64,000 nt of DNA from Leeuwenhoekiella sp. MAR_2009_132 (GTDB lineage Bacteria; Bacteroidota; Bacteroidia; Flavobacteriales; Flavobacteriaceae), in assembly GCF_000687915.1 (NCBI RefSeq), contig NZ_JHZY01000002.1:1426001-1490000 (forward strand), in the 5' to 3' direction. The translations under genes and the position numbers were made by a program. A model generated the notes under the pieces. The model made no database searches, was not told the origin of the DNA, and saw only the letters and a list, made by a program, of their open reading frames with translations. The first letter of the stretch is position 1. Each line of letters starts with the position of its first letter. This document shows, piece after piece, positions 43,419 to 63,626 of the stretch.

Positions 43419-44799
43419 TTTGAGTAAGATTTGGGTTTTTTAAGATTTCATCCTCGGGGATAGGGTATAGCAAATCGGTTTCCTCGATACCTTCCAGTAC
43501 ATCCTGTGCTCGTCCCGTACGCTTTAAATCCAACCAGCGATGTCCCCATTCACCAAAGAGTTCGTGAGAACGCTCTTCCAGCACCGCTTCAATCAGGCTT
43601 TCCTGAGAAAGGGATGTGTTAAACTCCAAAGTCTCCAGACCGGCACGCTCCCGTATAACATTGAGGTCGGCTACTGCCAGCTCCAGTTTACCCTGCCGGG
43701 TACGGGCTTCTGCCCGTATGAGATACTGCTCGGCCAGTCGCATAACCATCGAGTATTCGGTATAATCCCCTCCACTGGCATCGTATTGTATTTTGTATTT
43801 ATTAGGGTAGTAATAGGTTTGTGCGGCCGTTATAAAACTGCCTACCCAATCCTCCCGCCGTTGGTCTCCAGATTCCCAGCTTTGCAGCAAATCCGCACTT
43901 AGTTCGACCGGACTTCCGGTGGGAGTAATCCGTAGGAGCAGATTACCGTCTCGTGTATGAATAAAGCTGTTCCCCCAGCCCTCAGGAGATACCTGCCACA
44001 AGGCCTCCCGACTATTGGCCAAAAACACACTGTTTAGATCTTCAGGCAATTCATAAAGTTCATCAGCTTCCAGTACTTCACTGCTGTAAGCTTCGGCTAG
44101 TTCCCAATTTTCCAAATACAGTTGCACCCGCGCCAGTAAGCCCAGTGCTGTAAAACGGTTCGCCCGGGTACGCTCGTTATCGGGATAGTCATTATCCAGC
44201 AATGCAACCGCACGGGTTAAGTCTTCAAGAATAAGATTGTAAATATCAGTTTGCAGACTTCGGGGTTGTAGAGCATTTACCGTATAATTCGTTTGGGTGA
44301 TTAAGGGTACATCCCCATACAAATTGGTCAACTCAAAGTAGGTAAATGCCCGAATAAAACGTGCCTGGCCTTCCAGTGCTTCACGGGTATCAGCGCTTAG
44401 GGCATTGTTCTCTGCAACTCCTTCTATAAGGGCATTACACATATAAATCATGTTGTATGCTCCAGACCACAAATTCAGGTTCAGGCCATTAGAAGCTTCC
44501 AGCTGATACCCGGCAAATGCTTCCATATCAGGAACAGCACTTGTGAGACTATAGGTACCTGCACTAAGCCCACCTAAAAAACTTACACTGGCATTACCCC
44601 CTGCTGCAAAGGCTGTATTGAATAATTGTATATACATCCCATCCAGAGCTGCCCGGGCTGTGGCGTCATCGCCATATACTGTAGTACTGGTAATACGGTC
44701 ATTCGGCACCTCTAGAGCTACAAAGGATTCACATCCACTCAGTAAAAATGCCACCAGTAAAGCGGCTACTGCTCTTGGGTATTTTATAATGATTTTCAT
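43405..44799 (-). CDS. SusD/RagB family lipoprotein paired with M16 peptidase
   Basis: 464 residues from the ATG giving MKIIIKYPRAVAALLVAFLL and a lipobox LLSGC; the frame is open 25 codons further into the SusC end, but that part has no signal character. SusD core: ALEGQARFIRAFTYFELTNL and EYSMVMRLAEQYLIRAEART; C-terminal LEERSHELFGEWGHRWLDLK and IPEDEILKNPNLTQNAGY. Directly after the SusC (4 bases) and overlapping the peptidase. Base composition is visibly more GC-rich than the glycan SusD genes of the window. Confidence 0.93.
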   Translation of the reverse strand: MKIIIKYPRAVAALLVAFLLSGCESFVALEVPNDRITSTTVYGDDATARAALDGMYIQLFNTAFAAGGNASVSFLGGLSAGTYSLTSAVPDMEAFAGYQLEASNGLNLNLWSGAYNMIYMCNALIEGVAENNALSADTREALEGQARFIRAFTYFELTNLYGDVPLITQTNYTVNALQPRSLQTDIYNLILEDLTRAVALLDNDYPDNERTRANRFTALGLLARVQLYLENWELAEAYSSEVLEADELYELPEDLNSVFLANSREALWQVSPEGWGNSFIHTRDGNLLLRITPTGSPVELSADLLQSWESGDQRREDWVGSFITAAQTYYYPNKYKIQYDASGGDYTEYSMVMRLAEQYLIRAEARTRQGKLELAVADLNVIRERAGLETLEFNTSLSQESLIEAVLEERSHELFGEWGHRWLDLKRTGRAQDVLEGIEETDLLYPIPEDEILKNPNLTQNAGY

Positions 44800-44803
44800 A
44801 AGC

Positions 44804-47797
44804 TTAAAAATTAAGTTTGAGACCTGCAGTAAGCATTTGCAAAGCAGGTAGGTTAGTGCCGGGAGATTGCGCATCTAGCCCCCGGTATCTGGTAAACGTG
44901 AGTAGGTTTTGTCCCTGTAAAAACAGAACACATGAATTAAGTCCCCAGTTTTCTGCAGGGAGCTCATAGCTAAGACCCACTGTTTTAAGTCTTAAAAAAG
45001 AGGTGTTGGTATACACCCCAGCACTGGTAAGCAATCGGTTATACGCACGTGAGGCATCTATAGTTTGTGAAGCTTTTTGAACTTCTGCCACGTCCCCGGG
45101 GTTCTGCCAGCGGCGCTCATAATCTTCCTGAAGTATAGCACCCAGTCTGCCTGGAGCAATGCCGGGGTAATATTGCTGCCCCTCCTGCAGTACAAACTCC
45201 CATAAAAAATCAAGACGTACCCGCCCGTAACTAAGCTCATTGCGCAAACCGCCAAAAAGACTGCGGGTAAGATCTTTTACCCGTACGCGGTCGTCAAAGT
45301 TGTACACCCCGTCTTCGTTTATATCTTTAAACGTATACAACCCCGTCTCCGAATCTACCCCGGTATAATCATAGAGAAACTGAATGTTAAGTGATTCTCC
45401 CTCTTTGTAGATGTTGGCATACGAACTCTCTTCAATCCCGGGAAAGGCAATCAGGCGATTTTGAGGTATACTCGCGTTAAGTGAAGCCTGCCAGTTAAAG
45501 CGACCGGCACGCAAATTTGTAGAAGCTTCAAACTCCCAGCCGGTGTTCTCCACCGTAGCATCCAGGTTGGCCTGTATGCTGGTAAATCCGGTAATAGCAG
45601 GCAGGTTGTAACCTACCAGTTGATTAGACGAGCGGTTGCGGTACCAACTGCTACTCAACCGTAACTGATCTTTAAAAAAACCGAGATCAAGCGCTAGCTC
45701 CAGCTTGCGGTTACGCTCCCACGAGTAGATAGGGTTAGTAAGTTGGGTGGGATATAGCCCTCCCCCACCCGGAGTGGCAGAATAGGTGTCTAAATACCCA
45801 TAATCGCCTACCTGATCACTTCCCGTAGAACCATAGCTTCCACGTAATTTAGTAAACGATAAAAAGGTCTTTAAACCTTGCATCCAGCCCTCTTCACTTA
45901 CAATCCAGGCTGCACCCACTGCTCCAAAACTCGCAAAGCGGCGCGAGGGTCCAAAACGACTGCTCCCATCCCGTCTTCCGGTAAGATTGAGGTAGTATTT
46001 ACGGGCGTAGTTGATCCCCACACGTCCAAAACCTGCAGCATAGGCATATTCCTGAGTGGTATTATCGGTAACAAATAATTGTTCGGCAGCTGCAAGATTC
46101 CCTAGTAGCTGGTCATTAGCATAGCCTATCCCCACCATATTCAGCCCTGTATTTTTACGATGTTGAAAGGTTGATCCTAGCAGCGCATCCAGGTTAAACT
46201 TCCCCCAGCTGTTGCGGTAGATAAGCTGCGGCTCGACAATCCACGACTCCCGCTGGCCCCCTACGTGTAACGAACGGGAGTTTATAAAACTCCAAAGTGT
46301 AGGATTGTAAAACGTTAAGGGCTGCTTCACCAGTTCATTACTGTGCAGTAACGTATAGCCGCTATTGAGGCGCGCTTCCAGATTAGGGGTTATCGCATAC
46401 GAGAGACTCAGGCTGCTTATAAGTTGCTGCACCCGGGCTTCACTCTCCCGGTATAGGGTTGAGAAAGGATTGGTCCAGCTTGAGTCTTCCCAGTTGAGTT
46501 CCCCAGCATCCCCATACACTTCAGGTGCATTGGGAGCTAGAGATAATCCTGTGCTTACAAAGCTGCTGCCGTCAAACTGCCGGTTGCGATCACTGCCAAA
46601 GCTGGTATTAAACTGCAAGCTAAAGCGATCATCACGGCTGTTATGACTGAGGTTCAAATTTGCCGTAAACTTGTTGTATAAATAGTCCCCGGGAAATACA
46701 GCGGTCTCTCGTTGATAACCCAGCCCCAGATTAAATCGCATGGTCTCACTACCCCCACTAATTCCCAGATTAACCCCGGTGGTTTGTGCCGTACCTCCAA
46801 AAAGTTTTTCCTGCCAGTCGGTATACCGCTGCGAGTCCCAAAGTACCAGATCAGGAGCATTGGTCTGCGTAGGGGTTGCTCCGTCATTGGCAAAGGCTTC
46901 CTGCCTTAGGCTAATGTAATCCACTGTTGTAATCAAATCCAGTTTACGGGGTACAACACCGGCACCGGTATATACCTGCGCATTAAAACGGGTCTTTTGC
47001 TTCCCGCCTGTTCCTTTTTTTGTCGTGATCAGGATTACCCCGTTTGCTCCACGCGAACCGTAGATCGCCGTGGCATCAGCATCTTTTAAGATTTCGATGC
47101 TTTCAATATTGGCGGGGTTCAACGTATTGAGCGGGTCTATCCCTGCGATGTTGGGACTGGTAAGTCCGCTAAAGCTGTTAAGCGGGGCACTGTCTATGGG
47201 CACCCCGTTTATGATGTAGAGCGGCAGGTTGCCCGAATTACCAAAACCGCTGCGCAAACTATTTTGCCCCCGTATTTGTACGCTAGGCGCATTACCCGGC
47301 ACCCCACTGCGCTGCACCACAGAGACTCCTGCCATCCGCCCCTGCAAAGCCGTTAGCACATTGGTTACCGGCTGTCGCTCCAGTTCTTCTGCCGTAACCC
47401 GCGCGATGCTGCCCGTTTGCTCCCGGCGGGTGGTATTGTAATAGCCTGCATTGATGGTCACCTCACCCAGATCGGTGATGTCCTGCTCCAATACAATGCT
47501 AAAACGCATCTGCGTTCCCACAGGTATGCGTAGGGATTTAAATCCGAGGTAGGCAATACGTAAGGTATCCGTCGCTTGTGCATTCAGGCTAAATGCCCCT
47601 TGCAAATCGGTTTGTGTACCCCTGCTGCTGTTCGTTAAGGTGATACTAACCCCGGGAATGGGGTTGTCATTCGTATCGGTAACCCTACCGGATACGACTT
47701 GTTGGGGCAATGCTGCCCAAAGTAGATTTCCTGTTGCCCAAAATACGGCAACAAGTATCCACGCAACCCCCGTAAGGCGCGTAGCTTTATTTTTCAT
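44804..47797 (-). CDS. SusC/RagA TonB-dependent transporter, GC-rich
   Basis: 997 residues. Signal peptide to about 27; carboxypeptidase-like domain (VTDTNDNPIPGVSITLTNSS); LGEVTINAGYYNTTRREQTG in the TonB-box position; plug signature LKDADATAIYGSRGANGVIL; barrel ending AGLKLNF. The gene is noticeably richer in G and C than the other SusC genes here, with different codon choice, suggesting transfer from another lineage. First gene of the SusC-SusD-M16 operon. Its upstream region contains three terminator-like hairpins, all pointing towards the opposite strand. Confidence 0.94.
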   Translation of the reverse strand: MKNKATRLTGVAWILVAVFWATGNLLWAALPQQVVSGRVTDTNDNPIPGVSITLTNSSRGTQTDLQGAFSLNAQATDTLRIAYLGFKSLRIPVGTQMRFSIVLEQDITDLGEVTINAGYYNTTRREQTGSIARVTAEELERQPVTNVLTALQGRMAGVSVVQRSGVPGNAPSVQIRGQNSLRSGFGNSGNLPLYIINGVPIDSAPLNSFSGLTSPNIAGIDPLNTLNPANIESIEILKDADATAIYGSRGANGVILITTKKGTGGKQKTRFNAQVYTGAGVVPRKLDLITTVDYISLRQEAFANDGATPTQTNAPDLVLWDSQRYTDWQEKLFGGTAQTTGVNLGISGGSETMRFNLGLGYQRETAVFPGDYLYNKFTANLNLSHNSRDDRFSLQFNTSFGSDRNRQFDGSSFVSTGLSLAPNAPEVYGDAGELNWEDSSWTNPFSTLYRESEARVQQLISSLSLSYAITPNLEARLNSGYTLLHSNELVKQPLTFYNPTLWSFINSRSLHVGGQRESWIVEPQLIYRNSWGKFNLDALLGSTFQHRKNTGLNMVGIGYANDQLLGNLAAAEQLFVTDNTTQEYAYAAGFGRVGINYARKYYLNLTGRRDGSSRFGPSRRFASFGAVGAAWIVSEEGWMQGLKTFLSFTKLRGSYGSTGSDQVGDYGYLDTYSATPGGGGLYPTQLTNPIYSWERNRKLELALDLGFFKDQLRLSSSWYRNRSSNQLVGYNLPAITGFTSIQANLDATVENTGWEFEASTNLRAGRFNWQASLNASIPQNRLIAFPGIEESSYANIYKEGESLNIQFLYDYTGVDSETGLYTFKDINEDGVYNFDDRVRVKDLTRSLFGGLRNELSYGRVRLDFLWEFVLQEGQQYYPGIAPGRLGAILQEDYERRWQNPGDVAEVQKASQTIDASRAYNRLLTSAGVYTNTSFLRLKTVGLSYELPAENWGLNSCVLFLQGQNLLTFTRYRGLDAQSPGTNLPALQMLTAGLKLNF

Positions 47798-48786: not shown

Positions 48787-49182
48787 TATTCGGCTCCTAA
48801 ATTTATTTAATTTCTAGCCTTTTATCTAAACTCATTTTCATACACTCTTCATACTCTATCCTAGGCTTTGAGTGGGGGTTGCCTATAGTATGCTATACTG
48901 CTATCTCTACTTATTTTAGGAATCGTATTTCAATATCTTCTCGAGAGATTTAGAACTAAAGTCAAATATTTCCATCAAATCCTCAAAAGCATGATTGGAA
49001 ATTCTATTCCGTTATCCCTATCGTTTAAAGTTTCTACAAAAACGATACTGCTATTCTAATTACTTTAAACAATACAATACTATGAAGATCAACATTTCTT
49101 AAAAAATTTAACTAACTTTCCGTTTCGGTTCTTCCCCTACAACGATCCATTAGTTACTTAAAAAAATTACCATTTATTATAA
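48787..49182. other. AT-rich gap between XRE gene and hsdM
   Basis: About 400 bases without a coding ORF, RNA signature or strong hairpin. It probably contains the hsdM promoter, but I see no clear consensus. Confidence 0.5.
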
Positions 49183-50796
49183 ATGATCAAAGCAGATATT
49201 GATTTTGAAAAAGAACTCTGGGATGCAGCGAACGAATTGCGTGGCGCGGTATCAGAGAATAACTATAAAAACTACATCCTTCCCCTTGTTTTCGTAAAGC
49301 ACCTTAGCGAACGCTATGAGGTGGTGCGCGAGGAACTGAAGGAGCAGCTTAATGATCCTGAATCTGATTATTACACTACAGATAAGGAGGAGATCAATTA
49401 CGTCCTGGAAGACCGGGATGAATACCGCTCCCGGAATACCTTTAAAATTCCGGAAACCGCTTCTTGGCAGTATTTGAAAGACAATGCTGAGCAGGATGAT
49501 ATCAAGGTGAAGGTAGATGATGCTTTTGACGTGATCCAAGAACTTTTAACGGGCTATAACCCGCAGCTGGTAAATATTTTGCCGCGGATCTTTGTGCGGA
49601 GTGAACTATCTCCCAAACAAACCGGCGGAATCATCAACCTCCTCTCCCATCCTAAGTTTTCTGAAAAGGAAAATCCCGAAAGCGATATCCTTGGCCGTAT
49701 CTATGAATATTACATTGGCCGCTTCGCCATGGCTGAAGGTTCGGGTGCGGGGCAGTTTTTTACACCCGGAAGTATCGTAAGATTACTGGTGGAAATCCTG
49801 GAACCTTATAAAGGCCGTATTTTTGATCCGGCTTGTGGGAGTGGCGGTATGTTCGTGCAGAGTTTGAAATTCATCAAAGAACACGGCGGAAACAAAAAAG
49901 ACATCGCGATCTACGGCCAGGAAATGACCGCACAGACTTTACGGTTATGCCTGATGAACCTGATGCTGCGGGATCTTTCTTTTGATATCAAACTGGGAAA
50001 TTCCTTGCTTGACGACAAATTCCCCAACCTGAAAGCCGACTATATTATTGCCAATCCGCCATTTAATGTGAGCAACTGGCATCCTGAAGATCTACCAGAT
50101 GGTGATCCCCGATTGTTTGGCCCCAAAGAAGAATTCACTACAGATGGCAGCGCCAATTATATGTGGATGCAAACCTTCTGGCTGCATTTAAGCGACACGG
50201 GTACTGCCGGAATTGTAATGGCAAACGGCGCAATGACCTCCAACAACAAAGGCGAGAAAAATGTGCGGCAGCATATGGTAGACCATTCTATGATAGATGC
50301 CATCGTGCGCCTGCCCGATAAGCTGTTCCTCACCACCGGGATCCCCGCCTGCCTTTTCATCCTGAGCAAGAACCGCGACGGCAAATACGGCAGCCACCGC
50401 GAACGCAATAACGAGATTCTGTTCCTGGACGCCTCCAAAATGGGCACCATGGCCAGCCGGAAACTGCGGGTCTTTAGTGATGATGATATTAATAAAATAG
50501 CTGAAACCTACCACAAATGGCGCAATGTCAGCCCGAGCACCTCGACTTCGCTCGGCACAGGCTCCGTCGAAGGGTATGTCGATGTGGAAGGTTTCTCCAA
50601 AGCAGCCACCCTAGCCAATGTTCAAAAGCAGGATTACAAACTCACCCCGGGTATTTATGTAGGCACCGAAGCTGAAGAAGATGATGGAATTCCTTTTGAG
50701 GAAAAGATGGAGGGTCTCAAGGCACAGTTGTTAGAGCAGTTTGAAAAAGGTGAAGAATTAAAGGAAAAGATTAAAGGCAGTTTTGAGAAGATTTAA
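49183..50796 (+). CDS. hsdM: Type I restriction-modification DNA methyltransferase subunit
   Basis: 537 residues. An N-terminal HsdM helical domain (DFEKELWDAANELRGAVSEN) is followed by the N6-adenine methylase core with SAM motif I FDPACGSGGMF (214-224) and catalytic motif IV NPPF (291-294). It methylates adenine in the target site chosen by HsdS and forms the M2S core of the complex. Residues about 450-464 (SPSTSTSLGTGSVEG) do not fit the family and are encoded by a repeat-like hairpin sequence inserted in frame. Visibly GC-richer than the three genes that follow. Normally hsdS and hsdR follow directly; here they are separated by a 5.3-kb cargo. Confidence 0.95.
   Translation: MIKADIDFEKELWDAANELRGAVSENNYKNYILPLVFVKHLSERYEVVREELKEQLNDPESDYYTTDKEEINYVLEDRDEYRSRNTFKIPETASWQYLKDNAEQDDIKVKVDDAFDVIQELLTGYNPQLVNILPRIFVRSELSPKQTGGIINLLSHPKFSEKENPESDILGRIYEYYIGRFAMAEGSGAGQFFTPGSIVRLLVEILEPYKGRIFDPACGSGGMFVQSLKFIKEHGGNKKDIAIYGQEMTAQTLRLCLMNLMLRDLSFDIKLGNSLLDDKFPNLKADYIIANPPFNVSNWHPEDLPDGDPRLFGPKEEFTTDGSANYMWMQTFWLHLSDTGTAGIVMANGAMTSNNKGEKNVRQHMVDHSMIDAIVRLPDKLFLTTGIPACLFILSKNRDGKYGSHRERNNEILFLDASKMGTMASRKLRVFSDDDINKIAETYHKWRNVSPSTSTSLGTGSVEGYVDVEGFSKAATLANVQKQDYKLTPGIYVGTEAEEDDGIPFEEKMEGLKAQLLEQFEKGEELKEKIKGSFEKI
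50531..50574 (+). repeat. REP-like palindromic sequence inserted in hsdM
   Basis: A GC-rich stretch with inverted repeats CCGAGC (50533-50538) / GCTCGG (50550-50555) and CTTCG (50546-50550) / CGAAG (50568-50572). Wording such as CTCGACTTCGCTCGG resembles intergenic repeats common in Flavobacteriaceae. It is a multiple of three with its flanks and stays open, adding about 15 residues between the WRN and VDVEGFSKAATL parts of HsdM. Confidence 0.6.
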
Positions 50797-50912
50797 AGAA
50801 AAATTTAAAGTCGTCTTTTTACTAGAGAAGTAATGGTTAGTGCAATTAACCATTGGGAGTTAATTTTTTTTTTAAATGCATTGTTGGACAACATTAAAGT
50901 AAACTAAACTCT

Positions 50913-51884
50913 ATGGCGAGAATTTACATTTTACATTCGAGAGAGGAAGATAATTTTGTTAGGTCTTTAATGAAGAACCTCACCGATTTAGGTCACGACT
51001 TAATATTAAGTGATTTTGAAGTTGGCCACGATATAAATTTGTCTCTCAAAAATGCAATGCAGAGTGCTGATATTCAAGTTGCAATTATATCGGACAATGC
51101 AATTAGTTCCAGTTACTTTATGAATGAGATGATGCAACTTCGGAATTATTCAGTGCATACAAATCTTCGAAAATTATTTATTCCAATATTTTATCCAAAC
51201 GTTTCTTTTAATGAATTACCTAGTTCAATAAGAAATATTCAAGGTATAATGTTGAATGGTACGACCGAAAAAGATTCTAAAACAGTTGCTCGAGAAATGG
51301 ATATTGCCATTAACTCATTTTATGGAAAACAGATAGCAATTGAGGAAGAAGAAAAGGAAGTTAAAGACAAAATTGAGTCTACTGCACCTGAATATATTCA
51401 ACAGACATTAAGTGACTTAAAGTCTAAAGAAAGTAATATGAAAATGTATGCGGTGGTATGGTATACTATAGGTTTTATAGCACTTCTTGCAGGAGTGGCT
51501 GCAACTATATGGTTATCCGATTCAGGTCTGGACAATTTCGGAGAAAAGGAAAATTGGAGTAAAACAATTTTCTTTGCGATAAAGAGTGCCCTTATTATTA
51601 TACTCTTGATAGCATCATCTAAATACTCTTTCAATTTAGGTAAATCCTATATGAATGAAACAATGAAAATTGCGGACAGGATCCACGCAATTTCCTTTGG
51701 AAAGTTTTATTTACAGGTTTTCAACAAGCGTATTGAAGCAGAGGAACTTAAGGACATCTTCCGCGATTGGAACATAAGCACTCAATCATCTTTTTTGGGT
51801 TCGAAAAGTGAAGAATTTGATCCCAAAATATTAGAAAAGTTTTCTCAAATAATTGATAAAATTAAGGGAACGGAACCTAAATAA
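50913..51884 (+). CDS. TIR domain protein with two C-terminal membrane helices
   Basis: 323 residues. Residues 1-140 form a TIR_2-type domain: MARIYILHSREEDNFVRSLM, then DFEVGHDINLSLKNAMQSAD and SSSYFMNEMMQL, where Glu72 is at the position of the catalytic Glu of NAD-hydrolysing TIRs. A charged helix (145-175) leads to two transmembrane segments (about 179-202 and 219-238) and a helical tail, similar to SLATT-type 2TM effectors. It ends 8 bases before the helicase gene, so the two form one unit. The layout suggests an abortive-infection effector that consumes NAD or harms the membrane. No ThsA-type Thoeris partner is adjacent. Confidence 0.85.
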   Translation: MARIYILHSREEDNFVRSLMKNLTDLGHDLILSDFEVGHDINLSLKNAMQSADIQVAIISDNAISSSYFMNEMMQLRNYSVHTNLRKLFIPIFYPNVSFNELPSSIRNIQGIMLNGTTEKDSKTVAREMDIAINSFYGKQIAIEEEEKEVKDKIESTAPEYIQQTLSDLKSKESNMKMYAVVWYTIGFIALLAGVAATIWLSDSGLDNFGEKENWSKTIFFAIKSALIIILLIASSKYSFNLGKSYMNETMKIADRIHAISFGKFYLQVFNKRIEAEELKDIFRDWNISTQSSFLGSKSEEFDPKILEKFSQIIDKIKGTEPK

Positions 51885-51892
51885 GAAAATTA

Positions 51893-54800
51893 ATGACATT
51901 AACTCTACCCAAAGTATTAAAACTTGTTGATGAAATCAGCTCAAATCAGATATGGCAACTTTTGGGAGAGCAAACGACAATTGACAATGTTCAAATAGTA
52001 AGTATCAATCCTTTTGTAATACAATCAGAAGGAGTAAAGTACTTATTGACAAGTAACAAAGATTATCAAGACAATACAATTGATTATATTCTTCTTACTT
52101 CCAAAATTCCTAAAAGAGCTGATTTTAACGCAGGAAGGATAAAAATTCAACGTTGGCTCAAACACCCAGTTTTTCAAAATTTCACACCAGAAGAAGTTGT
52201 AACCAGTTGGATTGACAATTTCAAATTCATAAAGGAAAACGAGGAACAAAATATAAAAGGACTAAGACCGCCACAGATTGGTGCATTGCATTCAATTTTA
52301 GCTCACCTTCACAACGCAGACGACAAAGCAATTGTAGTAATGCCTACAGGGACAGGTAAAACTGAAACTATGTTGGCGACATTAATTTCCAATGGTTGCA
52401 AAAAACTTCTTGTTTCTGTCCCGTCAGACTCTCTGAGGACTCAGGTAGCTCAAAAATTTATTTCGCTTGGCTTACTCAAAGAATTTGGTATTGTTGACAC
52501 CTCCTGCCTGAATCCAATAGTTGGTATTGTCAATAGTGGTTTTGAGACCACACAAGACCTACAAAATTTCATTCAGAAGTGTAATGTGGTTGTATCTACA
52601 ATGACCTTGTTAACAGGTTTTTCAACACAACAAAAAGAAATACTAAACAATACTTTCTCTCATTTTTTTGTTGATGAAGCTCATCATTCAGAGGCAAAAA
52701 CCTGGAAACGACTTATCAATAGGTTTGATAAGGAAAAAGTTTTTCTATTTACAGCGACCCCTTTCCGAAATGACGGACAAAATTTACAAGGAAAGCAAAT
52801 TTTTAATTTTTCACTTAGAAAAGCACAAGAACAGAAGTACTACAAACAAATCAATTACTTACCAATCAGAGAATACAATAAAAATTTAGCTGATAAAAAA
52901 ATTGCAGAAAAGGCAGTTGAACAATTGAGAGCGGACCGTGCCGAAGGTTTTAACCATTTTATTATGGCAAGGTGCAAAGATAAAGTACGTGCGAAAGAAG
53001 TTTTTGAACATTATAAAGAATATACTGACTTAAACCCAGTGTTAGTTCATACAGGTATTGCAGGCATAAAAAATAAAATTGAAGCAATAAAACGCGGGGT
53101 CCACTTTATAATTGTGTGTGTAAATATGTTAGGCGAAGGGTTCGACCTACCTAATCTCAAAATTGCTGCAATTCACGATGAACGCCAAAGTTTACCAATT
53201 ACGCTTCAATTTATCGGACGATTTACAAGAACGTCCTATGAACAATTAGGAAATGCAAGTTTTATTACTAATATTGCTTACCCACCTATACACGAAGAAT
53301 TAGATCAGCTTTATGCACGTAATTCAGATTGGAATTTACTTCTTCCCCGGTTAAGTGATAATGCAACTCAAAAGGAACTTGATATTAAAGCATTTTTGGA
53401 CGGCTTTGATAATCTTACCGATTCAATTATTCCTTTTCAGCAAATTAATCCTGCAATGAGCACGGTAATTTTTCAATGCGCCGTTGATACTTGGCATCCT
53501 TCTAATTGGGAAACAGGCTTTCCAGGAATAAATAATTTTGAACACGTTTTCAGCCGTCATAGTAATGAAACGTTGGTGATCATTTTAGGAAAAATTGAAA
53601 AAGTGGAATGGGGAAGATTTGAAACCGTTCAAAATTTACAATGGCATCTAATAGTAGTACATTGGGATTTAAGACCTAACGTAAATAGAGTTTTCTTAAA
53701 CTCTTCGATAAAAGGGTTTTCAGGAACATCTTTATTGGAAGCCATTTTTGGAGTAGGCAGTACAACCCAAATCACCGGTATGAATGTATTCCGAATATTC
53801 CACAACGTAAATAGACTTTCACTTTTTAATGTTGGAACAAGAAGAGGAATTGGACAAGACGTGACCTTTCAATCCTATTATGGAAAAGGAGTTCAGGACG
53901 GTATCAGAGAACTTGAGCAAGGAACTCTAATTAAAAATAACATTTTTGGAGTTGGCTATAAGGAAGGAGAAAAAATATCTCTTGGTTGTTCTGTAAAAGG
54001 AAAAATTTGGTCATATCAGAGAGGTAACTTAGATGAACTTACCAAATGGTGTGAAAATATTGGAGATATAGTTACAGACGATGAAATCGATCCCAATATT
54101 GTTCTACAGCACACATTAGCAATTGAGAAATTACATCAAAGACCTAATGTTATGCCAATTTTGATTGATTGGAATCCTGAAATGTATGAGAATAGCGAAA
54201 GTAGATATATTATCAATGTCAATGGTGCATCTTATGATCTTGCATTTACAGAGTTAAATTTATTGGATCCAAGCCTAGATGTTAATCACAGCCTAAAATT
54301 TGCATTAGAAACAGAGGTGGACTCTATTCACTTTGAAATGGTATTAGGTCTTAGTCAAAAAACAAATGAACCCTATTACAAAATCAATAAACTTACAAAT
54401 CACACCTGCACAATACAATATGGCAATAAGAACGAAAGTTTAGTGAATTTTTTTCAAGACACTACCCCAACAATTTGGTTTGCTGATGGCTCTCAGTTGT
54501 TTGGAAATCATTTTGTAAAATTAAAGGTTCAACCAGGTCTTTTTTCCAGTGATTCAATTATTACAGACAATTGGACAGGTATAGATATTAGAAAAGAATC
54601 TCAAGACATAGCACCATATATTAAGGATTCAATTCAGTATTATTTTATTGAAAAAATAAAAGATGACTTTCAAATTATCTACGATGATGATGGAAAAGGA
54701 GAGATAGCAGACATTATTGGTATAAACGATTCAGATACAGTAATTGATATCCATTTGTATCACCTTAAATATGCTAAAAAGGGTGTGGTAAACAATAACA

Positions 54801-55135
54801 TTGATAACTTCTATCAAGTTTGCGGACAAGCAGAAAAATCTTTAAAGTGGAAACATAAATCTGGTAGAGAATTTTTTAATCACCTATTTAAGCGAAAAAC
54901 AAAAACACTTGGAGGCAATAGTTGCAGTAGAATTGTAAAAGGGACAGAAGACGATTTAGAAAATTTATTAAATCAAGCTAAATGGACTAAGGCAATGCGC
55001 TTTCATATTTACATTGTTCAACCATCATTGAGTAAGGCAAACCCATCAAAAGATATTCTATTGTTGCTGGGTAACGTTCAACATTATCTTGCTACCGTTG
55101 GAAACGTGGAATTGAAAGTTTACTCAAGTCCATAA
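51893..55135 (+). CDS. Large SF2 DEAD/DEAH helicase with putative C-terminal nuclease-like domain
   Basis: 1080 residues. An N-terminal domain of unknown family (1-120) precedes the SF2 core: Q-like region LRPPQIGALHSIL, Walker A MPTGTGKT (150-157), DEAH at 261-264, FTATPFR (about 285) and motif VI QFIGRFTRTS (about 445). The remaining 600 residues are not a family I recognise. One segment (DGKGEIADIIGI, then TVIDIHLYHLKYAKKG) has the spacing of acidic residues plus Lys seen in PD-(D/E)xK-like nucleases, but this is only a visual match. AT-rich, unlike hsdM and hsdR. Probably a nucleic-acid sensor or translocase working with the TIR protein. Confidence 0.82.
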   Translation: MTLTLPKVLKLVDEISSNQIWQLLGEQTTIDNVQIVSINPFVIQSEGVKYLLTSNKDYQDNTIDYILLTSKIPKRADFNAGRIKIQRWLKHPVFQNFTPEEVVTSWIDNFKFIKENEEQNIKGLRPPQIGALHSILAHLHNADDKAIVVMPTGTGKTETMLATLISNGCKKLLVSVPSDSLRTQVAQKFISLGLLKEFGIVDTSCLNPIVGIVNSGFETTQDLQNFIQKCNVVVSTMTLLTGFSTQQKEILNNTFSHFFVDEAHHSEAKTWKRLINRFDKEKVFLFTATPFRNDGQNLQGKQIFNFSLRKAQEQKYYKQINYLPIREYNKNLADKKIAEKAVEQLRADRAEGFNHFIMARCKDKVRAKEVFEHYKEYTDLNPVLVHTGIAGIKNKIEAIKRGVHFIIVCVNMLGEGFDLPNLKIAAIHDERQSLPITLQFIGRFTRTSYEQLGNASFITNIAYPPIHEELDQLYARNSDWNLLLPRLSDNATQKELDIKAFLDGFDNLTDSIIPFQQINPAMSTVIFQCAVDTWHPSNWETGFPGINNFEHVFSRHSNETLVIILGKIEKVEWGRFETVQNLQWHLIVVHWDLRPNVNRVFLNSSIKGFSGTSLLEAIFGVGSTTQITGMNVFRIFHNVNRLSLFNVGTRRGIGQDVTFQSYYGKGVQDGIRELEQGTLIKNNIFGVGYKEGEKISLGCSVKGKIWSYQRGNLDELTKWCENIGDIVTDDEIDPNIVLQHTLAIEKLHQRPNVMPILIDWNPEMYENSESRYIINVNGASYDLAFTELNLLDPSLDVNHSLKFALETEVDSIHFEMVLGLSQKTNEPYYKINKLTNHTCTIQYGNKNESLVNFFQDTTPTIWFADGSQLFGNHFVKLKVQPGLFSSDSIITDNWTGIDIRKESQDIAPYIKDSIQYYFIEKIKDDFQIIYDDDGKGEIADIIGINDSDTVIDIHLYHLKYAKKGVVNNNIDNFYQVCGQAEKSLKWKHKSGREFFNHLFKRKTKTLGGNSCSRIVKGTEDDLENLLNQAKWTKAMRFHIYIVQPSLSKANPSKDILLLLGNVQHYLATVGNVELKVYSSP

Positions 55136-55272
55136 AGAGGTAATCAAAAAATGAAAATAATAGCAGCTGCCAATATCACCTATACCCAAGCTGAGGTTTC
55201 GTTCTTCAAAAGACAAGATACTGGAAAAATCCTTGCCTTCGTATAGCTGCAAAAGATAGATGTACTTTAAAA

Positions 55273-56067
55273 ATGAAGGAAGAATTTGATAAATACATAG
55301 CTCAGAAACGAAAACTCGGAAGAATCCTAACCTTAGGTACAGAAATGTCTCAAAAAGTTGCTGGTAGAATTGAAAATCATACTAAAGCCTATGCAACAAT
55401 TCTGTTTACCAGAATGTGTGCCACATCAGTTAGTATGATGAAACTGGGTCCAGAAAGTATAGAGTCGCATTGGGAGTGTACATCATTGTTTTCTCTGACT
55501 CGAAATTTAATAGAAAATTACCACACTTTGTTCTATTTTTCTATTGATAAAATAAGTGAGGATGAACGAGAATTAAGAAAGTTATTTTTTGATCTTCACG
55601 AAACTAAAAGCAGAGCCGATATGCTCTTTTATTTAGCTAAAGAAGATAAGAATCAAGGAGTAAAAATTGAGAAAGAAATAAAAGATCGGATAAGGAATAA
55701 TAAAATTTTTAAAGAGCTTCATCAGAAAAAACAAAAAAACCTTATAAAAGGAAGCTCATCTTTTATAATTACCAGGGAAGAAATAGAAGAAAGAATAGGA
55801 AACAGTAAGGAAAAGTATAAAGGTTTATATAAGTTCTTGTCTAACCAAGTACATAGTTTCCCTATGTCATTTACAAGAATGACTGAACAACAAAAAGGTA
55901 GAGGAATAGCAAGTGAAGTAGAAATCAACTATTCTAATATGGCTTTTGAACTAAGTGCAAATTATTATTTAGAAGGCTGTCTAAATATGGTTCAATTGTT
56001 TCCTGAGTTAAAATCTGATTATGAACAAAAACTTTTGAATGAAAAACAGAAACAGCATAACGCCTAA
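55273..56067 (+). CDS. Helical protein of unknown function, HEPN-like motif
   Basis: 264 residues, predicted all-helical, cytoplasmic. SLTRNLIENYHTLFYFSID contains R-N-x5-H, which fits the HEPN RNase consensus (R, polar residue, then H). A later SNQVHSFP segment resembles the conserved part of DUF5677-type proteins. Neither assignment is certain. It lies 137 bases after the helicase gene and 114 bases before hsdS, on the same strand and with the same AT-rich composition as the TIR and helicase genes. A toxin or RNA-cleaving effector of the cargo is a reasonable but unproven reading. Confidence 0.65.
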   Translation: MKEEFDKYIAQKRKLGRILTLGTEMSQKVAGRIENHTKAYATILFTRMCATSVSMMKLGPESIESHWECTSLFSLTRNLIENYHTLFYFSIDKISEDERELRKLFFDLHETKSRADMLFYLAKEDKNQGVKIEKEIKDRIRNNKIFKELHQKKQKNLIKGSSSFIITREEIEERIGNSKEKYKGLYKFLSNQVHSFPMSFTRMTEQQKGRGIASEVEINYSNMAFELSANYYLEGCLNMVQLFPELKSDYEQKLLNEKQKQHNA

Positions 56068-56181
56068 GAATCAATTATACAAACTGGGGAATACCTCACA
56101 ATGCAATGGTTAACTGTAAAATAGAAGTTCCTAAGCCGAAACTTGCATTATTCGAGAAGTTAAAAACACAAACAACAACTA

Positions 56182-57450
56182 ATGCCAGAAAACTGGAAAA
56201 CATATAAACTTTCAGAAGCCTTTGAAATAATTGGTGGAGGAACGCCAAAAACCAAAATTAAAGAATACTGGAATGGTAACATCCCGTGGTTATCTGTAGT
56301 TGATTTCAATGATGATCAGAGGACGGTTTTTTCTACAGAGAAATCTATTACTGAACTCGGCCTTAAAAAAAGTAGTACCAAAATTTTGTCTGAGGGCCAA
56401 CTAATAATTTCTGCACGAGGTACCGTTGGACAAATTGCCCAATTGGGAAGAGATATGGCATTTAACCAATCCTGCTACGGCCTATCTGGGAAGGAAAATA
56501 TTTTATTAAATGATTTCGGCTATTACTTAATAAAATCTTCTATAACAAACATCCAAGCCAATTCTCACGGTTCCGTATTTGACACTATCACGAGAAATAC
56601 CTTTGACAATATTGAAGTTGGTATACCTCCTCTCCCAGAACAAAAATCCATCGCCTCCATCCTTTCTGCTTTAGACGATAAGATCGAACTCAATCTCCAA
56701 ATGAACAAAACCCTGGAACAAATGGCAATGGTTTTATACAAGCACTGGTTTGTTGATTTTGGGCCTTTTCAGGATGGGGAATTTGTGTACTCTGAACTGG
56801 GAGAAATTCCGAAGGGATGGGAAGTGAAAAAATTAGGAGATGTTGCCGAAGTTGGCTCCAGTAAAAGAATTTTTCGTAACGAATATGTAGAGAACGGAAT
56901 TCCGTTTTTCCGAGGAAAAGAAGTAATTCAACTTAGTCAAGGAAAAAGTATTTCCACTGAACTATTTATAAAGGCTGATAAATATCATTTAATAAAAGAG
57001 AAATTCGGAGTGCCTAAAAAAGATGATATTTTGATATCTTCTGTGGGCACTATAGGAGTTTCCTGGTTAGTTGAAAACAACAATCCTTTTTATTTTAAAG
57101 ATGGAAATTTAACCTGGATAAAAAATTATAAACCAGAAGTGAATGGCCATTTTATTTCTCAGTGGTTAAAATCACCGTCCACCCAGGATCAAATCAAAGG
57201 TGAAACAATAGGAAGTACTCAACAAGCTTTAACTATTTCTGCTTTGAGAACTTTAAAAATAGCTCTTCCTAAAGATGAATCTTATGTTGAAGATATATCT
57301 AAAAAATTAAAACTTTGGAATACAGCTTTAGTTGCAAATAAAAAGGAAATAGAATTACTAACCCAACTCCGTGACACCTTATTGCCAAAAGTCATCAGCG
57401 GGGAAGTCCGCGTGAAAGATGCGGAGCAAATCGTAACAGAAGTCTTATGA
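56182..57450 (+). CDS. hsdS: Type I restriction-modification specificity subunit
   Basis: 422 residues with two target recognition domains. TRD1 starts GGGTPKTKIKEYWNGNIPWL; the central conserved helix is PPLPEQKSIASILSALDDKI; TRD2 starts EIPKGWEVKKLGDVAEVGSS; the distal conserved helix is NKKEIELLTQLRDTLLPKVI. Each TRD reads one half of a split target site. TRD1 and TRD2 are AT-rich while the conserved repeats and the 3' end are GC-richer, as expected when TRDs are exchanged by recombination. The stop overlaps the hsdR start by four bases (ATGA). Confidence 0.94.
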   Translation: MPENWKTYKLSEAFEIIGGGTPKTKIKEYWNGNIPWLSVVDFNDDQRTVFSTEKSITELGLKKSSTKILSEGQLIISARGTVGQIAQLGRDMAFNQSCYGLSGKENILLNDFGYYLIKSSITNIQANSHGSVFDTITRNTFDNIEVGIPPLPEQKSIASILSALDDKIELNLQMNKTLEQMAMVLYKHWFVDFGPFQDGEFVYSELGEIPKGWEVKKLGDVAEVGSSKRIFRNEYVENGIPFFRGKEVIQLSQGKSISTELFIKADKYHLIKEKFGVPKKDDILISSVGTIGVSWLVENNNPFYFKDGNLTWIKNYKPEVNGHFISQWLKSPSTQDQIKGETIGSTQQALTISALRTLKIALPKDESYVEDISKKLKLWNTALVANKKEIELLTQLRDTLLPKVISGEVRVKDAEQIVTEVL

Positions 57451-60449
57451 CACAAATGATCGAGATCACGGTGCAAAAGGCTGCCATAGCCTGCCTTCAG
57501 GAGTTGGGGTACACCTATAAAGAAGGCAATTCCCTGCAGCGGGATCTCAAAAAAGTGGTTTTGGAGGAGGATCTTCGGGAATTTTTAGTGAGCTCCTACC
57601 CCGGCGTACCTGGCACCGCCATTAACGAAGCCCTTTCAGCTTTTACGCAGCACCAGGGAATGGATCTCGATCACCGCAACCGCGATTTTCATCTTAAAAT
57701 GACCCAGGGGGTTTCCATTACCTGGAAAGATGCTTCGGGCAAAGAACAGGCCCGGCACCTCTACCCTATCAATTACCTGGAGCCTAAGAAAAATACCTTT
57801 GTGTGTGCAGATGAAGTAAAGATCATGGGCAAGAACAGCCGCCGCACAGATCTGCTCGTTTTCATCAACGGACTTCCGCTCATCGTTTTTGAATTCAAGA
57901 ATATGTTTGATCCCGAGGTGGGCGTGGAAAACGCGCACCGGCAAATTGGGCATTACGTTCAGGATATTCCGCAGCTGTTTGATTACAATGCCATCACGGT
58001 AGTTTCAGATGGGCTGGAAACCCTACACGGGATGTACAACTCATCGCTAAAGTGGTTTGCTCCGTGGAAAAGCGTTCACGGGGATGACCTTCAGCAGAAA
58101 CAGGAACTTCAGCTGGAGACCTTGCTGAAGGGATTATTTCCGAAGAAAACCCTATTAAACTACCTTCAAAACTTCATTTTCCACGAAGACCATAACGGGA
58201 AAATAATCAAGAAAGGCGCAAAATACCACCAGTACTGGGGCATCAAAAAAGCGGTGGACAGTGCCGTAGGAAATATAAAACCCAACGGTGACGGCCGGCT
58301 GGGAGTGATCTGGCACACGCAGGGATCGGGTAAAAGCATCTCGATGGCCATCCTTACCGGGATCCTGCGGCAAATGCCCGAAATGAAAAACCCCACCATC
58401 CTCATACAGGTAGACCGTAATGACCTGGACCAGCAACTCTATGAGAATTTTGTGCTGTGCAAAGACCTGGTGGGCCACGTACAACACGCCGATACCACCG
58501 ATGAGCTTCGGGCCCTGCTGAGTACCGATGGCGGCGGGGTGATCTTTACCACCATTGAGAAATTCCGCTTAAAAGAACTGGCTTCGGGAAAAGAGCTCTC
58601 CCACCCCGTTCTTTCTGAACGGTACAACCTGATCGTGATGGCCGATGAAGCTCACCGCACCCAGTACGGCTTTCATAGCGGCGGCTTTGCGCAGAACATC
58701 AGACGCGCGTTGCCCAATGCCTCCTTTATAGGATTCACCGGAACTCCCGTAGATGGCAAAGATGCCGATACCCAACAGGTATTTGGCCCCACAATTCACA
58801 CCTACGATATCAAACAGGCCGTGGAAGACGGTGCCACGGTGCCCATTTATTACGAACCAAAAATGGTTCCGCTCAACATCAAAGCCAAATATGACAGGGA
58901 GCTGGATGAAATGGAAGAAGATGCCGATGAGGAGAACAATGCCGTTTGGGCCGCGATAGAAGATGCCGCCGGGGCTGCAGACCGGGTAGATAGAGTTGCC
59001 AAAGACATCCTCACCCATTTTAAAGCCAGGGCCGAAAGCTTAGAAGGCAAAGCGATGATCGTGTGTATGAGCCGCAAGAACTGCGTAAAAATGTATAATG
59101 CGCTCACTGCACTTGAAGGTTACCCTGAAATAGCCGTGATTATGACCGGAAACATCAGCAAAGATCCTACGGCCTGGAATCCGCATATACGCACTAAAGA
59201 TGCAATGGAAGCGATAAAAAAACGTTTCCGTACACCTGAAGATCCGCTTAAAATTGTAGTCGTTCGTGATATGTGGCTTACGGGATTTGACGCGCCCTGC
59301 GCCCATACGATGTATGTGGATAAAATTATGAAAGGTCATAACCTGATGCAGGCCATTGCAAGAGTGAACCGCGTTTTTCAAGACAAACCCAACGGACTCG
59401 TAGTAGATTTTATAGGCATTTCCGGCTTTCTTGCCGAGGCCACCAAAAAATACACTGCCGGGGGTGGGGAAGGAAAACCCACTCTGGATCTTGAAGCCGC
59501 GGTAGAAATTTGCCTGGAGCAATTTGAGAAAGTGAAAGATCTTATAGGTGATTTTTCTGCGGAAAGCATCAATGCAATGACCGATATGGACAAAATGAAA
59601 TGGTCTAGCAGTGTAGTGAATAGCCTTTTAAAATCTGATGCCGTTACCGATGCATTTTTGCTCGAAGAGCGCAAGTTGGCCGAACTGGTGGCTATGACGA
59701 GTTCAGATCCGCGGGTTTGGGAGATTCAGGAAGAGCTTGCGATCATTCAGAAGATCAGACAGCTCATCAGAAAAATAAAATTCCCTCCCGGTTCGCGTAG
59801 GGAAAAGAATGAAAAGATAAAAGACCTGATAAGCAAATCCCTGGAATCACAGGAGATTGTAGATCTGGCAAAAATGTACAACCTGGACAAGATCGATATT
59901 TCCATAGTAGACGATCGCTTCCAGGCCATTGTAAAGGAAAAAGGCGACGAGAACATCAAAGTAGAATTGCTGCGCCGGATCATCAATGACGAGATACGGG
60001 TGCGCATGCCTAAAAACATCCGCAGGATGCGAAAACTGAAAGACGAGTTAGAAAAAGTGCTTGGTAACTACCATAAAAATTCTTTGGATTCCATCGCCGC
60101 CATCAAGCATTTGCTGGACATCGCGAATGAATTTCAGCAGGATGACATCCGAACCAAACAACTAGGTTTAACCGAAGACGAACTCGCTTTTTACGATCTG
60201 TTATCGGCTAACGAAAAGTTACTGAACCAATCTGGCCCCATCCAGGACCTGGCACATAAAGTTGTGGACTCCGTTAAGAAAAATCTCCAACTAGACTGGG
60301 CGCGAAATGAGAATGCAAAAGCCGCTATTCGACTGGCCGTAAAAAAAGAATTACGAGGCAAGGTACCCTTTTCTGAACTGGATAATTTGCTGAAGGAAGT
60401 TATAGAACAAGCCGAGGGGCAGTATAGAGATTGGCCTCTAGAGGCTTGA
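57447..60449 (+). CDS. hsdR: Type I restriction endonuclease subunit
   Basis: 1000 residues. N-terminal PD-(D/E)xK nuclease with Asp135, Glu149 and Lys151 (RTDLLVFINGLPLIVFEFKN). SF2 translocase: Walker A TQGSGKS (291-297), DEAH 400-403, FTGTPV (about 429), then the second RecA domain and a helical HsdM-binding tail ending GQYRDWPLEA. Acts with HsdM and HsdS to translocate and cut unmethylated foreign DNA. All key residues are present, so the system looks active. GC-rich like hsdM. A second copy of its last 43 codons lies at 61079. Confidence 0.95.
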   Translation: MTQMIEITVQKAAIACLQELGYTYKEGNSLQRDLKKVVLEEDLREFLVSSYPGVPGTAINEALSAFTQHQGMDLDHRNRDFHLKMTQGVSITWKDASGKEQARHLYPINYLEPKKNTFVCADEVKIMGKNSRRTDLLVFINGLPLIVFEFKNMFDPEVGVENAHRQIGHYVQDIPQLFDYNAITVVSDGLETLHGMYNSSLKWFAPWKSVHGDDLQQKQELQLETLLKGLFPKKTLLNYLQNFIFHEDHNGKIIKKGAKYHQYWGIKKAVDSAVGNIKPNGDGRLGVIWHTQGSGKSISMAILTGILRQMPEMKNPTILIQVDRNDLDQQLYENFVLCKDLVGHVQHADTTDELRALLSTDGGGVIFTTIEKFRLKELASGKELSHPVLSERYNLIVMADEAHRTQYGFHSGGFAQNIRRALPNASFIGFTGTPVDGKDADTQQVFGPTIHTYDIKQAVEDGATVPIYYEPKMVPLNIKAKYDRELDEMEEDADEENNAVWAAIEDAAGAADRVDRVAKDILTHFKARAESLEGKAMIVCMSRKNCVKMYNALTALEGYPEIAVIMTGNISKDPTAWNPHIRTKDAMEAIKKRFRTPEDPLKIVVVRDMWLTGFDAPCAHTMYVDKIMKGHNLMQAIARVNRVFQDKPNGLVVDFIGISGFLAEATKKYTAGGGEGKPTLDLEAAVEICLEQFEKVKDLIGDFSAESINAMTDMDKMKWSSSVVNSLLKSDAVTDAFLLEERKLAELVAMTSSDPRVWEIQEELAIIQKIRQLIRKIKFPPGSRREKNEKIKDLISKSLESQEIVDLAKMYNLDKIDISIVDDRFQAIVKEKGDENIKVELLRRIINDEIRVRMPKNIRRMRKLKDELEKVLGNYHKNSLDSIAAIKHLLDIANEFQQDDIRTKQLGLTEDELAFYDLLSANEKLLNQSGPIQDLAHKVVDSVKKNLQLDWARNENAKAAIRLAVKKELRGKVPFSELDNLLKEVIEQAEGQYRDWPLEA

Positions 60450-60861: not shown

Positions 60862-61640
60862 GAATGAAACAATATTCATTTGTAAACTCCATCGTTTCGC
60901 AATAGTTTGTTTAACAACAGTATTCTTACTTAGCTAATGAATACAAGTACCTGATAGGTTCTAATACTAAAATCAATTATTAAACTGGTGCCGGGAAAGC
61001 TTTTGTAGCTTACATTCAATCATACCACGAGAATTTCGATTCTAGCCCAGATTTAGGGTAATAAAATAGAAACATACCCTCGCCGCCATTCGCTCAGCAG
61101 TGAAAAATAAATCACGGGGCAAAGTTCCATTTACTGAACTGGATAATTTGCTGAAGGAAGTAATCGAACAAGCTGAGGGGCAATATAAGGATTGGCCGTT
61201 GGAGGCTTAGAAGATTTACTTCAGGAAGTAATAAATAAATGGATAAGATTGAAACTAACTAAGAGTTAATAAAGGATAAATTTTCTAATTCAATTATTTA
61301 CCCATTTAGAATCTACTCCACATCAATTTCAATCACATAGCTACCTAATTCGTCTACAAGTTGAAACGTGGTTCTACATTTCAATTTTTCTTTAAATATT
61401 TAAGTTTCTTTTCAATACTACTTACAGAATAATGCTATTTGTAGGCTTCCCTAAAAAAGGGGAAGCCTACACGATCAATGCTAATTTCTTACTCTTGCCC
61501 TTGACTATACTTAACTTATTATAAAAATAAGAGGCTACATTTTTGGTTATTAAGATTAAATGCTTCTGATTTATATTTGATATACATTTGTTAAATACTT
61601 TAATAATCAAACACTAAATTGTTTAAGTTGAAATTTCAAT
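60862..61640. other. Degraded region with hsdR scar and a hairpin
   Basis: Besides the hsdR remnant (61079-61210), this stretch holds a short minus-strand coding-like fragment (61313-61390, QLVDELGSYVIEIDVE) and a strong hairpin: GTAGGCTTCCC (61441-61451) / GGGAAGCCTAC (61460-61470) with an A-rich loop. The hairpin lacks a good T-run on either strand. No intact gene is seen. Confidence 0.55.
61079..61210 (+). pseudogene. Remnant of a second hsdR 3' end
   Basis: In frame, 43 codons read AAIRSAVKNKSRGKVPFTEL, then DNLLKEVIEQAEGQYKDWPL and EA stop. This is nearly the same as the C-terminus of the intact HsdR (AAIRLAVKKELRGKVPFSEL and on), but not identical in DNA or protein. It therefore comes from a related hsdR allele rather than a recent copy. 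No upstream coding part remains. It marks an exchange or insertion at the hsdR end. Confidence 0.88.
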
Positions 61641-62776: not shown

Positions 62777-63626
62777 AATGGGTCTACCAATGTTTCGGGA
62801 TATCTAAACAAGCTTTTTACAAGCGTCTGGCAATACATCAAAAGTCTAACCAGCAAGAACAAGCTATACTTAACCTTGTTGAACAGGTCAGAAAGGAAAT
62901 GCCAAAAACGGGCAGTTTAAAGCTGTATAAATCAATCAAGCCGGCTCTTGTTGAAAAGAATATTAAAATGGGCAGAGATCGCTTCTATCTACTTCTTAGA
63001 AGACATCGCCTGCTCATACCCAAAACCAAAAGAGCACACATCACAACAAACTCAAAACATCACTTTTATAAATATCCAAATCTAGTTAAGGACTTCATTC
63101 CTACAGCTGCAGAGCAGCTGCAGAGCAGCTGTAGGTAAGTGATGGTGGTAATGCATATCTTGCGCTGGTAACAGACGCCTATTCTAAAAAAATAATGGGT
63201 TACAAAATCGATGATCATATGAAAACGAGCCTCTGTATTGATGCGCTCAAAATGGCTTTAAAACAAAGAAAATACCCCCACCAAAAGCTCATTCATCACT
63301 CTGACCGCGGTCTGCAGTACTGTAACCCTACCTACACTAACTTCGCGGAGAGAAACGGGATCAACACCAGTATGACCCAGCAATACGACCCCTATGAGAA
63401 TGCCGTAGCCGAACGAATAAACGGAATACTAAAACAGGAATATGGATTGGGTAAAACAATTGTGAATCTTAAACTAGCTCAGAAAATGGTTAAAAAAGCA
63501 GTCAAAATCTACAATTCAAAACGAATGCACTACAGCCTGGAATTTAAAACTCCAGACTTTGCTCACAGTAATCAAAATCATAGTTACAGACAGTACAGAA
63601 AAATACCGATATTAGTAACCGAATGA
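62777..63626 (+). pseudogene. IS3 orfB transposase, internally deleted
   Basis: The 5' part reads VYQCFGISKQAFYKRLAIHQ and PKTGSLKLYKSIKPALVEKN, ending at a stop after EQLQSSCR. The 3' part (YLALVTDAYSKKIMGYKIDD to KIPILVTE) is the rve integrase core. Between them the segment carrying the first catalytic Asp is replaced by a duplicated GCTGCAGAGCA motif (63108-63135) and a deletion. Confidence 0.8.

Follow-up and report, generated by a model that had tools for sequence, protein, structure and literature searches.

Organisation of the locus

The window, a stretch of 64,000 nucleotides (nt) from Leeuwenhoekiella sp. MAR_2009_132 (contig NZ_JHZY01000002.1, positions 1,426,001 to 1,490,000), contains a type I restriction-modification (R-M) operon in which three further genes stand between hsdM and hsdS. 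They encode, in order, a TIR protein with two transmembrane helices (TIR-2TM), a DEAH helicase of superfamily 2 (SF2) and a DUF5677 protein; we refer to them as the cargo, and to the interval that they fill as the slot. Open reading frames (ORFs) and Pfam matches confirm the position of the three genes given in an original prediction, made from the letters of the DNA, and its view of them as defence-like cargo within a type I R-M operon is supported by the comparisons below. The features, in window coordinates, are:

49183–50796, + strand: hsdM (N6_Mtase, E = 3.1e-93, and HsdM_N; NPPF and DPACGSGG motifs); conserved left arm
50797–56181, + strand: hsdM–hsdS interval, the cargo slot, filled otherwise in seven related loci
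50913–51884, + strand: TIR-2TM gene, 323 residues (TIR_2, E = 8.7e-13)
51893–55135, + strand: DEAH SF2 helicase gene, 1080 residues (ResIII, E = 2.3e-25)
54596–55132, + strand: nuclease-like C-terminal domain of the helicase, residues 902–1080 (alignment and model)
55273–56067, + strand: DUF5677 gene, 264 residues (PF18928, E = 1e-11)
56182–57450, + strand: hsdS (Methylase_S, E = 1.8e-49)
57447–60449, + strand: hsdR (family match and motifs); conserved right arm
61082–61208, + strand: partial duplicate of the hsdR 3′ end (127 nt at 81% identity; DNA comparison)

The hsdM methylase, hsdS specificity and hsdR motor-nuclease motifs are all present, and by these motifs the operon around the cargo looks intact; hsdS and hsdR overlap by 4 nt. 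The TIR-2TM stop and the helicase start are 8 nt apart in the same direction, as had been predicted. The expected contrast between AT-rich cargo (30.8–33.8% G+C) and GC-richer hsd genes holds for hsdM (46.8%) and hsdR (47.9%) but fails for hsdS which, at 35.9%, is nearly as low as the cargo, so that the AT-rich block comprises cargo plus hsdS rather than cargo alone.

The hsdM–hsdS interval in related operons

A search with hsdM of 397 genomes drawn from the family gave 24 matches at E ≤ 1e-120, the window's own included. All 23 other loci were opened, together with one plasmid relative from Microscilla sp. PRE1 (L092; 90% identity over 362 residues). The near clade is formed by the window, six relatives (hsdM 71–95% identical, each from another genus) and the plasmid; the far set comprises 17 loci at 43–48%. 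Counting reading frames of at least 60 residues, cargo lies between hsdM and hsdS in 8/8 near-clade loci (window included) and between hsdS and hsdR in none of the seven that could be evaluated. The far set mostly shows the reverse, with genes in the hsdM–hsdS interval in 6/17 loci and in the hsdS–hsdR interval in 15/17 (Fisher p = 0.003 and 0.0001 for the two intervals, or 0.006 and 0.0003 when the window is omitted; kinship between loci is ignored in these values). The other seven near-clade slots, assigned by Pfam for L081 to L086, hold:

L081: AbiC, a SIR2–TIR fusion, an M78 peptidase and two more small proteins
L082: a 998-residue KAP ATPase
L083: a 1046-residue KAP ATPase; a TIR gene follows hsdR
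L084: RhuM-Fic and a 154-residue protein
L085: a 1067-residue KAP ATPase
L086: an OLD-like ATPase
L092 (plasmid): a KAP-like P-loop ATPase with RelE and IrrE; the hsdM gene is fragmented, and hsdS is followed by IS21 genes

None of the window's three cargo proteins has a phmmer match in the cargo of these seven slots. The only matches come from the profile of the window's TIR family, to the SIR2–TIR fusion of L081 and, at a weak level, to another protein of that locus. Since the same position in related operons is occupied by other defence-like genes, the cargo of the window looks like one filling of a slot, rather than a fixed new two-gene system.

Conserved arms around replaced sequence

The DNA comparison with L081 shows where conservation begins and ends. 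Homology covers hsdM (49178–50803, 87%) and ends 7 nt past its stop codon; it reappears over a central 215 nt of hsdS (56626–56840, 88%) and resumes at 57358, covering the last 93 nt of hsdS and continuing through hsdR (90%). The two hsdS regions between these conserved stretches have no DNA homology to L081. The same pattern holds in all six genome relatives, where DNA homology stops no more than 34 nt from the hsdM stop and returns inside hsdS. At the protein level the identities of hsdM across the six (93, 89, 87, 85, 83 and 71%) and of hsdR in the same order (95, 87, 80, 79, 76 and 57%) fall in step, whilst hsdS stays at 33–37% in every one; hsdM and hsdR therefore seem to be inherited together, with cargo and target regions replaced. 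The simplest reading would be exchange by recombination within these two arms. The target regions of hsdS vary in type I systems in any case, and need not have been exchanged jointly with the cargo. We tentatively propose, as a possibility rather than the expected outcome, that hsdM and hsdR provide the homologous flanks of a cassette comprising cargo plus hsdS target regions, such that one exchange could bring a new specificity and a new back-up effector together, across genera.

The TIR-2TM protein

The TIR domain spans residues 1–118 and is followed by a long helix (119–208) that includes the first membrane segment, the second beginning at 215; the hydrophobic stretches begin at residues 178 and 215, and with the TIR_2 match they bear out the predicted TIR protein with two membrane helices. 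Both the fold and the conserved TIR glutamate (Glu72, kept in 74 of 78 aligned sequences) are present, and cleavage of nicotinamide adenine dinucleotide (NAD) is predicted. The tail is conserved as well (DRIHAIxFGKFYL ... FxxWN). Joined as it is to this 2TM-plus-tail module, which matched no Pfam family, the TIR domain differs from the bacterial TIR NADases AbTir and SPARTA TIR-APAZ. SLATT was absent from the Pfam matches of the 2TM part, in a search that was limited to Pfam and made no profile–profile comparison. The 2TM half also occurs joined to other N-termini, EAD11 among them, and is matched by phrog_2628, a PHROG without assigned function (E = 5.6e-16); the TIR-2TM protein itself had no match among phage records. 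PADLOC returned ThsB alone (E = 0.005), and the closest TIR-2TM homologues are 76–82% identical.

The helicase and its C-terminal domain

The second cargo protein consists of an N-terminal region, a motor (approximately residues 98–490) with the motifs GTGKT, DEAH and QFIGRFTR, a middle region and a C-terminal domain (approximately 902–1080). Its description as a 1080-residue DEAH helicase stands; the C-terminal region of 600 residues that had been called unknown ends in what appears to be a nuclease-like domain. The family is very large, with at least 3146 matches in one search and at least 7115 in another (about 8000 candidates scored in each), and no curated name for it was found. We aligned 106 sequences: that of the window, with 21 drawn from the listing of one search and 84 from that of the other, each listing having 120 entries. 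The motor motifs checked are invariant in this alignment, as are, in 106/106, E902, Q915, D932, D933, E937, D940, H957, K959, Q979, R1001, R1013, Q1043 and P1044; a further 31 helicases, aligned as a separate set, show no variation at these residues either.

In the predicted structure (mean predicted local distance difference test score 82.9) the domain contains a helix (914–925), three strands (928–931, 941–946 and 950–958) and a second helix (971–988), giving a core of the order α-β-β-β-α, with D940 directly preceding the second strand and H957-x-K959 closing the third. The PD-(D/E)XK fold is defined by D ... (D/E/Q)xK within an α-β-β-β-α core; the order of the core, D940 and K959 fit this definition, and the residue two before the lysine is histidine in 106/106. 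The model thus suggests a divergent PD-(D/E)XK nuclease with histidine replacing the usual acid. The domain had no Pfam match and no credible match against PDB sequences, and the nuclease assignment accordingly stays a prediction. A 623-residue protein on a Roseibium plasmid that also carries the helicase (L045, 13668–15536) matches the profile of this domain (E = 9e-08) and no Pfam family; from this match, the domain may exist in other proteins too.

SauUSI, RadD and XPB (among the top Foldseek rows) come closest to the motor in sequence or fold, with E = 2.7e-07 for the motor core against PDB 7clg; the fold comparison of the whole protein tests essentially the motor region. SauUSI-type enzymes are defined by an N-terminal PLD nuclease and a C-terminal DUF3427-type domain. 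The window's helicase shares the SF2 motor core with SauUSI, XPB and RadD but lacks a PLD-nuclease or DUF3427 family match; its matches to SauUSI-type type IV restriction enzymes are confined to the motor (approximately residues 115–455), and its N- and C-terminal regions are its own. As a RadD it scores 39.1 bits, against a curated cut-off of 720 bits for NF053632. PADLOC gave partial matches in the motor region only (PbeA, type IV restriction, DinG, Cas3). Four phage records match the helicase, in two cases along the greater part of the protein.

The DUF5677 protein and named defence systems

HEPN RNases are defined by a conserved R-x(4-6)-H motif, and the third protein had been credited with an R-N-x5-H version of it. 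This motif is not conserved: in an alignment of the window's protein with four sequences 23–25% identical to it, R77 is present in 5/5 and H194 in 5/5, whilst H84 is present in 1/5, that of the window alone, and assignment as a HEPN RNase was rejected. PADLOC returned Cas2b alone for this protein (E = 0.0015). Seven plasmid records carry a DUF5677 homologue; in the four that were opened, the neighbours differ from those of the window.

As anticipated, no curated family or PADLOC entry names the three-gene set. Thoeris, defined by a ThsA effector gene beside the TIR gene thsB, was ruled out in agreement with the original prediction, there being no ThsA match for the three cargo proteins or for the three small downstream ORFs scanned (for hsdM and hsdS the lists covered the best 25 matches). 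Hachiman, defined by a HamA (DUF1837) partner and the HamB helicase, was likewise rejected: the three cargo proteins have no HamA or HamB match at E ≤ 0.1, consistent with the predicted lack of a HamA-like partner, and distant relatives of the helicase match HamB only at E = 0.0003–0.004.

Genomic neighbourhoods of the helicase and the 2TM module

Outside the window, 45 helicase loci were surveyed, comprising 7 from genome contigs, 8 from genome searches by phylum or class, 16 plasmids (of 68 matching records), 4 E. coli (of 15 matching genomes among 5426) and 10 viral loci. The viral contigs yielded nothing to single-protein scans but gave matches to alignment-based scans, in which 10 of the 80 loci listed hold the C-terminal domain of the helicase. 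The set includes near-copies (L015 and L016; the E. coli loci), one very divergent member (L030), two in pieces (L019 and L044) and some short stretches. TIR genes were sought by annotation and with the profile of the window's TIR family. A TIR-2TM gene stands beside the helicase in 0/45 of these loci, and a TIR gene of any kind in 1/45 (L041, on the opposite strand and without a 2TM module). Conversely, no helicase stands beside the 2TM module in the 11 other loci surveyed for it (L024, L031–L034 and L105–L110), a count that leaves aside the closest homologues at 76–82% identity, includes four loci with near-equal match values (L106–L109) and two whose stretches begin at the gene (L105 and L110).

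Genes of the hsd type occur in the stretch around the helicase in 11 of the 45 (L012, L013, L022, L037, L044, L046–L049, L118 and L120, as fragments in L046). Other neighbours are very mixed and include SIR2 with HerA (L010), PDDEXK_4 (L012), GmrSD with OLD and UvrD (L029), reverse transcriptase (L026), HerA with an SMC-like gene (L052), Fic-like/AlbA_2 (L015), MmeI (L027) and NERD (L030). The TIR gene of L041, from Bradyrhizobium elkanii (11005–12204), encodes a 400-residue protein with the TIR domain at 96–206, and runs convergently to within a few nt of the helicase end. Tle1-like phospholipase genes lie 12 nt after the helicase in Roseovarius (L042, 10953–12080) and about 1 kb after it in Methylocystis (L036, 11976–13133). 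A gene of roughly 415–421 residues lies 152 nt after the helicase on each of the four E. coli chromosomes that were opened and on one E. coli plasmid (L047, 9435–10697, for instance); the copy scanned had no match in Pfam, PHROGs or PADLOC.

Weighing the explanations

On this evidence, the locus is probably the type I R-M operon of one clade, whose hsdM–hsdS interval serves as a slot for exchangeable defence cargo. The slot of the window combines three modules that elsewhere occur separately, namely a membrane-anchored TIR, a helicase with a nuclease-like C-terminus and DUF5677.

The strongest competitor, in our view unlikely, makes the helicase a type I R-M accessory, a second motor-nuclease working with HsdMS, with the TIR and DUF5677 proteins as passengers. 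Its start 6–12 nt after hsdS in three of the four E. coli genomes opened fits such a role, as do the hsd genes nearby in 11/45 loci (a count without a base-rate control); the E. coli cases, however, are close copies (95–100% identical), and 34/45 loci have no hsd gene by annotation or by the phmmer queries used. Moreover, the flanking genes are oriented opposite to the helicase in L011, and in L021 it sits between mobile-element genes.

It is less probable still that TIR-2TM and helicase constitute one new two-gene system, in which the helicase would detect invading DNA and in turn activate the TIR NADase at the membrane. The 8-nt spacing in the same direction would fit a true pair, both catalytic sites look intact, and other genes adjoin the helicase in L041 (another TIR, on the opposite strand) and L042 (the phospholipase). 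The original prediction held that the two surely act together, and proposed the search for conserved TIR–helicase pairs as its own refutation; in that search the homologues were not found together, and helicases 65–84% identical to that of the window occur without TIR-2TM. The counts of 0/45 and 0/11 thus do not support a two-gene system, and a conserved pair is rejected as a general rule. Among the best 120 matches listed for each of the two proteins, a comparison by eye of the longest contigs showed no length in common, which is weak evidence. A young, lineage-specific partnership may nonetheless exist, since the TIR profile came from a single family, some stretches were short and the homologues at 76–82% identity were uncounted. 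A chance pile-up of unrelated insertions in a defence island, with no slot at all, is very improbable: the AT-richness of the cargo, the helicase relatives on 68 plasmid records, and the partial hsdR copy and integrase-core ORF downstream would suit it, but the same interval is used in 8/8 near-clade loci and the other in 0/7, with the far set mostly reversed.

Several observations, besides the spacing and the nearby hsd genes just mentioned, weigh against an exchangeable defence slot. The defence role of the cargo is predicted from family resemblance. The near clade numbers only 8 loci, and its fillings are not all independent, because three loci share related KAP-type genes (L083, L085 and L092) and two share related M78/IrrE genes (L081 and L092). 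The plasmid member is degraded, with its broken hsdM, its IS21 genes and a homology that ends 283 nt before the hsdM stop, and in 6/17 loci of the far set small genes likewise occupy the hsdM–hsdS interval. Finally, a scan of the locus for promoters and terminators gave matches at chance level.

If the locus is indeed such a slot, the cargo would most likely be expressed together with the R-M genes and add layers of back-up. The helicase could move along DNA that has evaded the type I enzyme and cleave it; the TIR protein, once triggered, might consume NAD or disturb the membrane, stopping the infected cell, and the DUF5677 protein may be a further effector.

Flanking features

The partial hsdR copy lies about 630 nt downstream of hsdR, past an ORF of 129 residues, and may be left over from a past exchange or duplication event at the operon's right end. 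Further on, an integrase-core ORF of 143 residues (63195–63626; rve and rve_3 matches) is probably part of a transposase. Upstream, on the minus strand (43405–47797), two large genes resemble an outer membrane pair of the SusD-like and SusC/TonB type, judged by sequence alone.

Relation to known systems and significance

That type I R-M operons can house embedded defence genes is established by TgvAB, RloF, DarTG2 and PrrC (PMC11411939, PMC12255303, PMC12707154), with TgvAB coming from V. cholerae (PMC11411939) and DarTG2 from enteropathogenic E. coli (PMC12255303); the latter source calls the hsdS–hsdR site a potential hotspot. The window resembles these in having extra defence genes within the hsd operon; TgvAB, RloF and DarTG2 are placed by these sources between hsdS and hsdR, whereas the slot of the window lies between hsdM and hsdS and has different occupants. 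HEPN toxin-type genes are also encoded with R-M genes as further defence lines (PMC3710099); the likeness lies in the association of toxin-type genes with R-M, although the DUF5677 protein of the window lacks a conserved R-x(4-6)-H in the five sequences aligned. Neither the TIR–helicase pair nor the clade with the hsdM–hsdS slot was described in the literature searched, the coverage of which was partial (including PMC8195603, PMC10853773, PMC13092281 and PMC7159879). Embedded cargo in type I R-M operons is thus already known, and the hsdM–hsdS slot is a variant of it.

Two clear targets for testing emerge. One is the helicase family, whose members number in the thousands, lack a curated name and share an invariant C-terminus of nuclease-like type; the other is the 2TM module, which takes TIR, EAD11 or other N-termini. 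If the slot interpretation is true, the hsdM–hsdS interval of this clade would be an address at which defence genes as yet unknown could be collected from more genomes, and immune cargo would be shown turning over along with DNA specificity.

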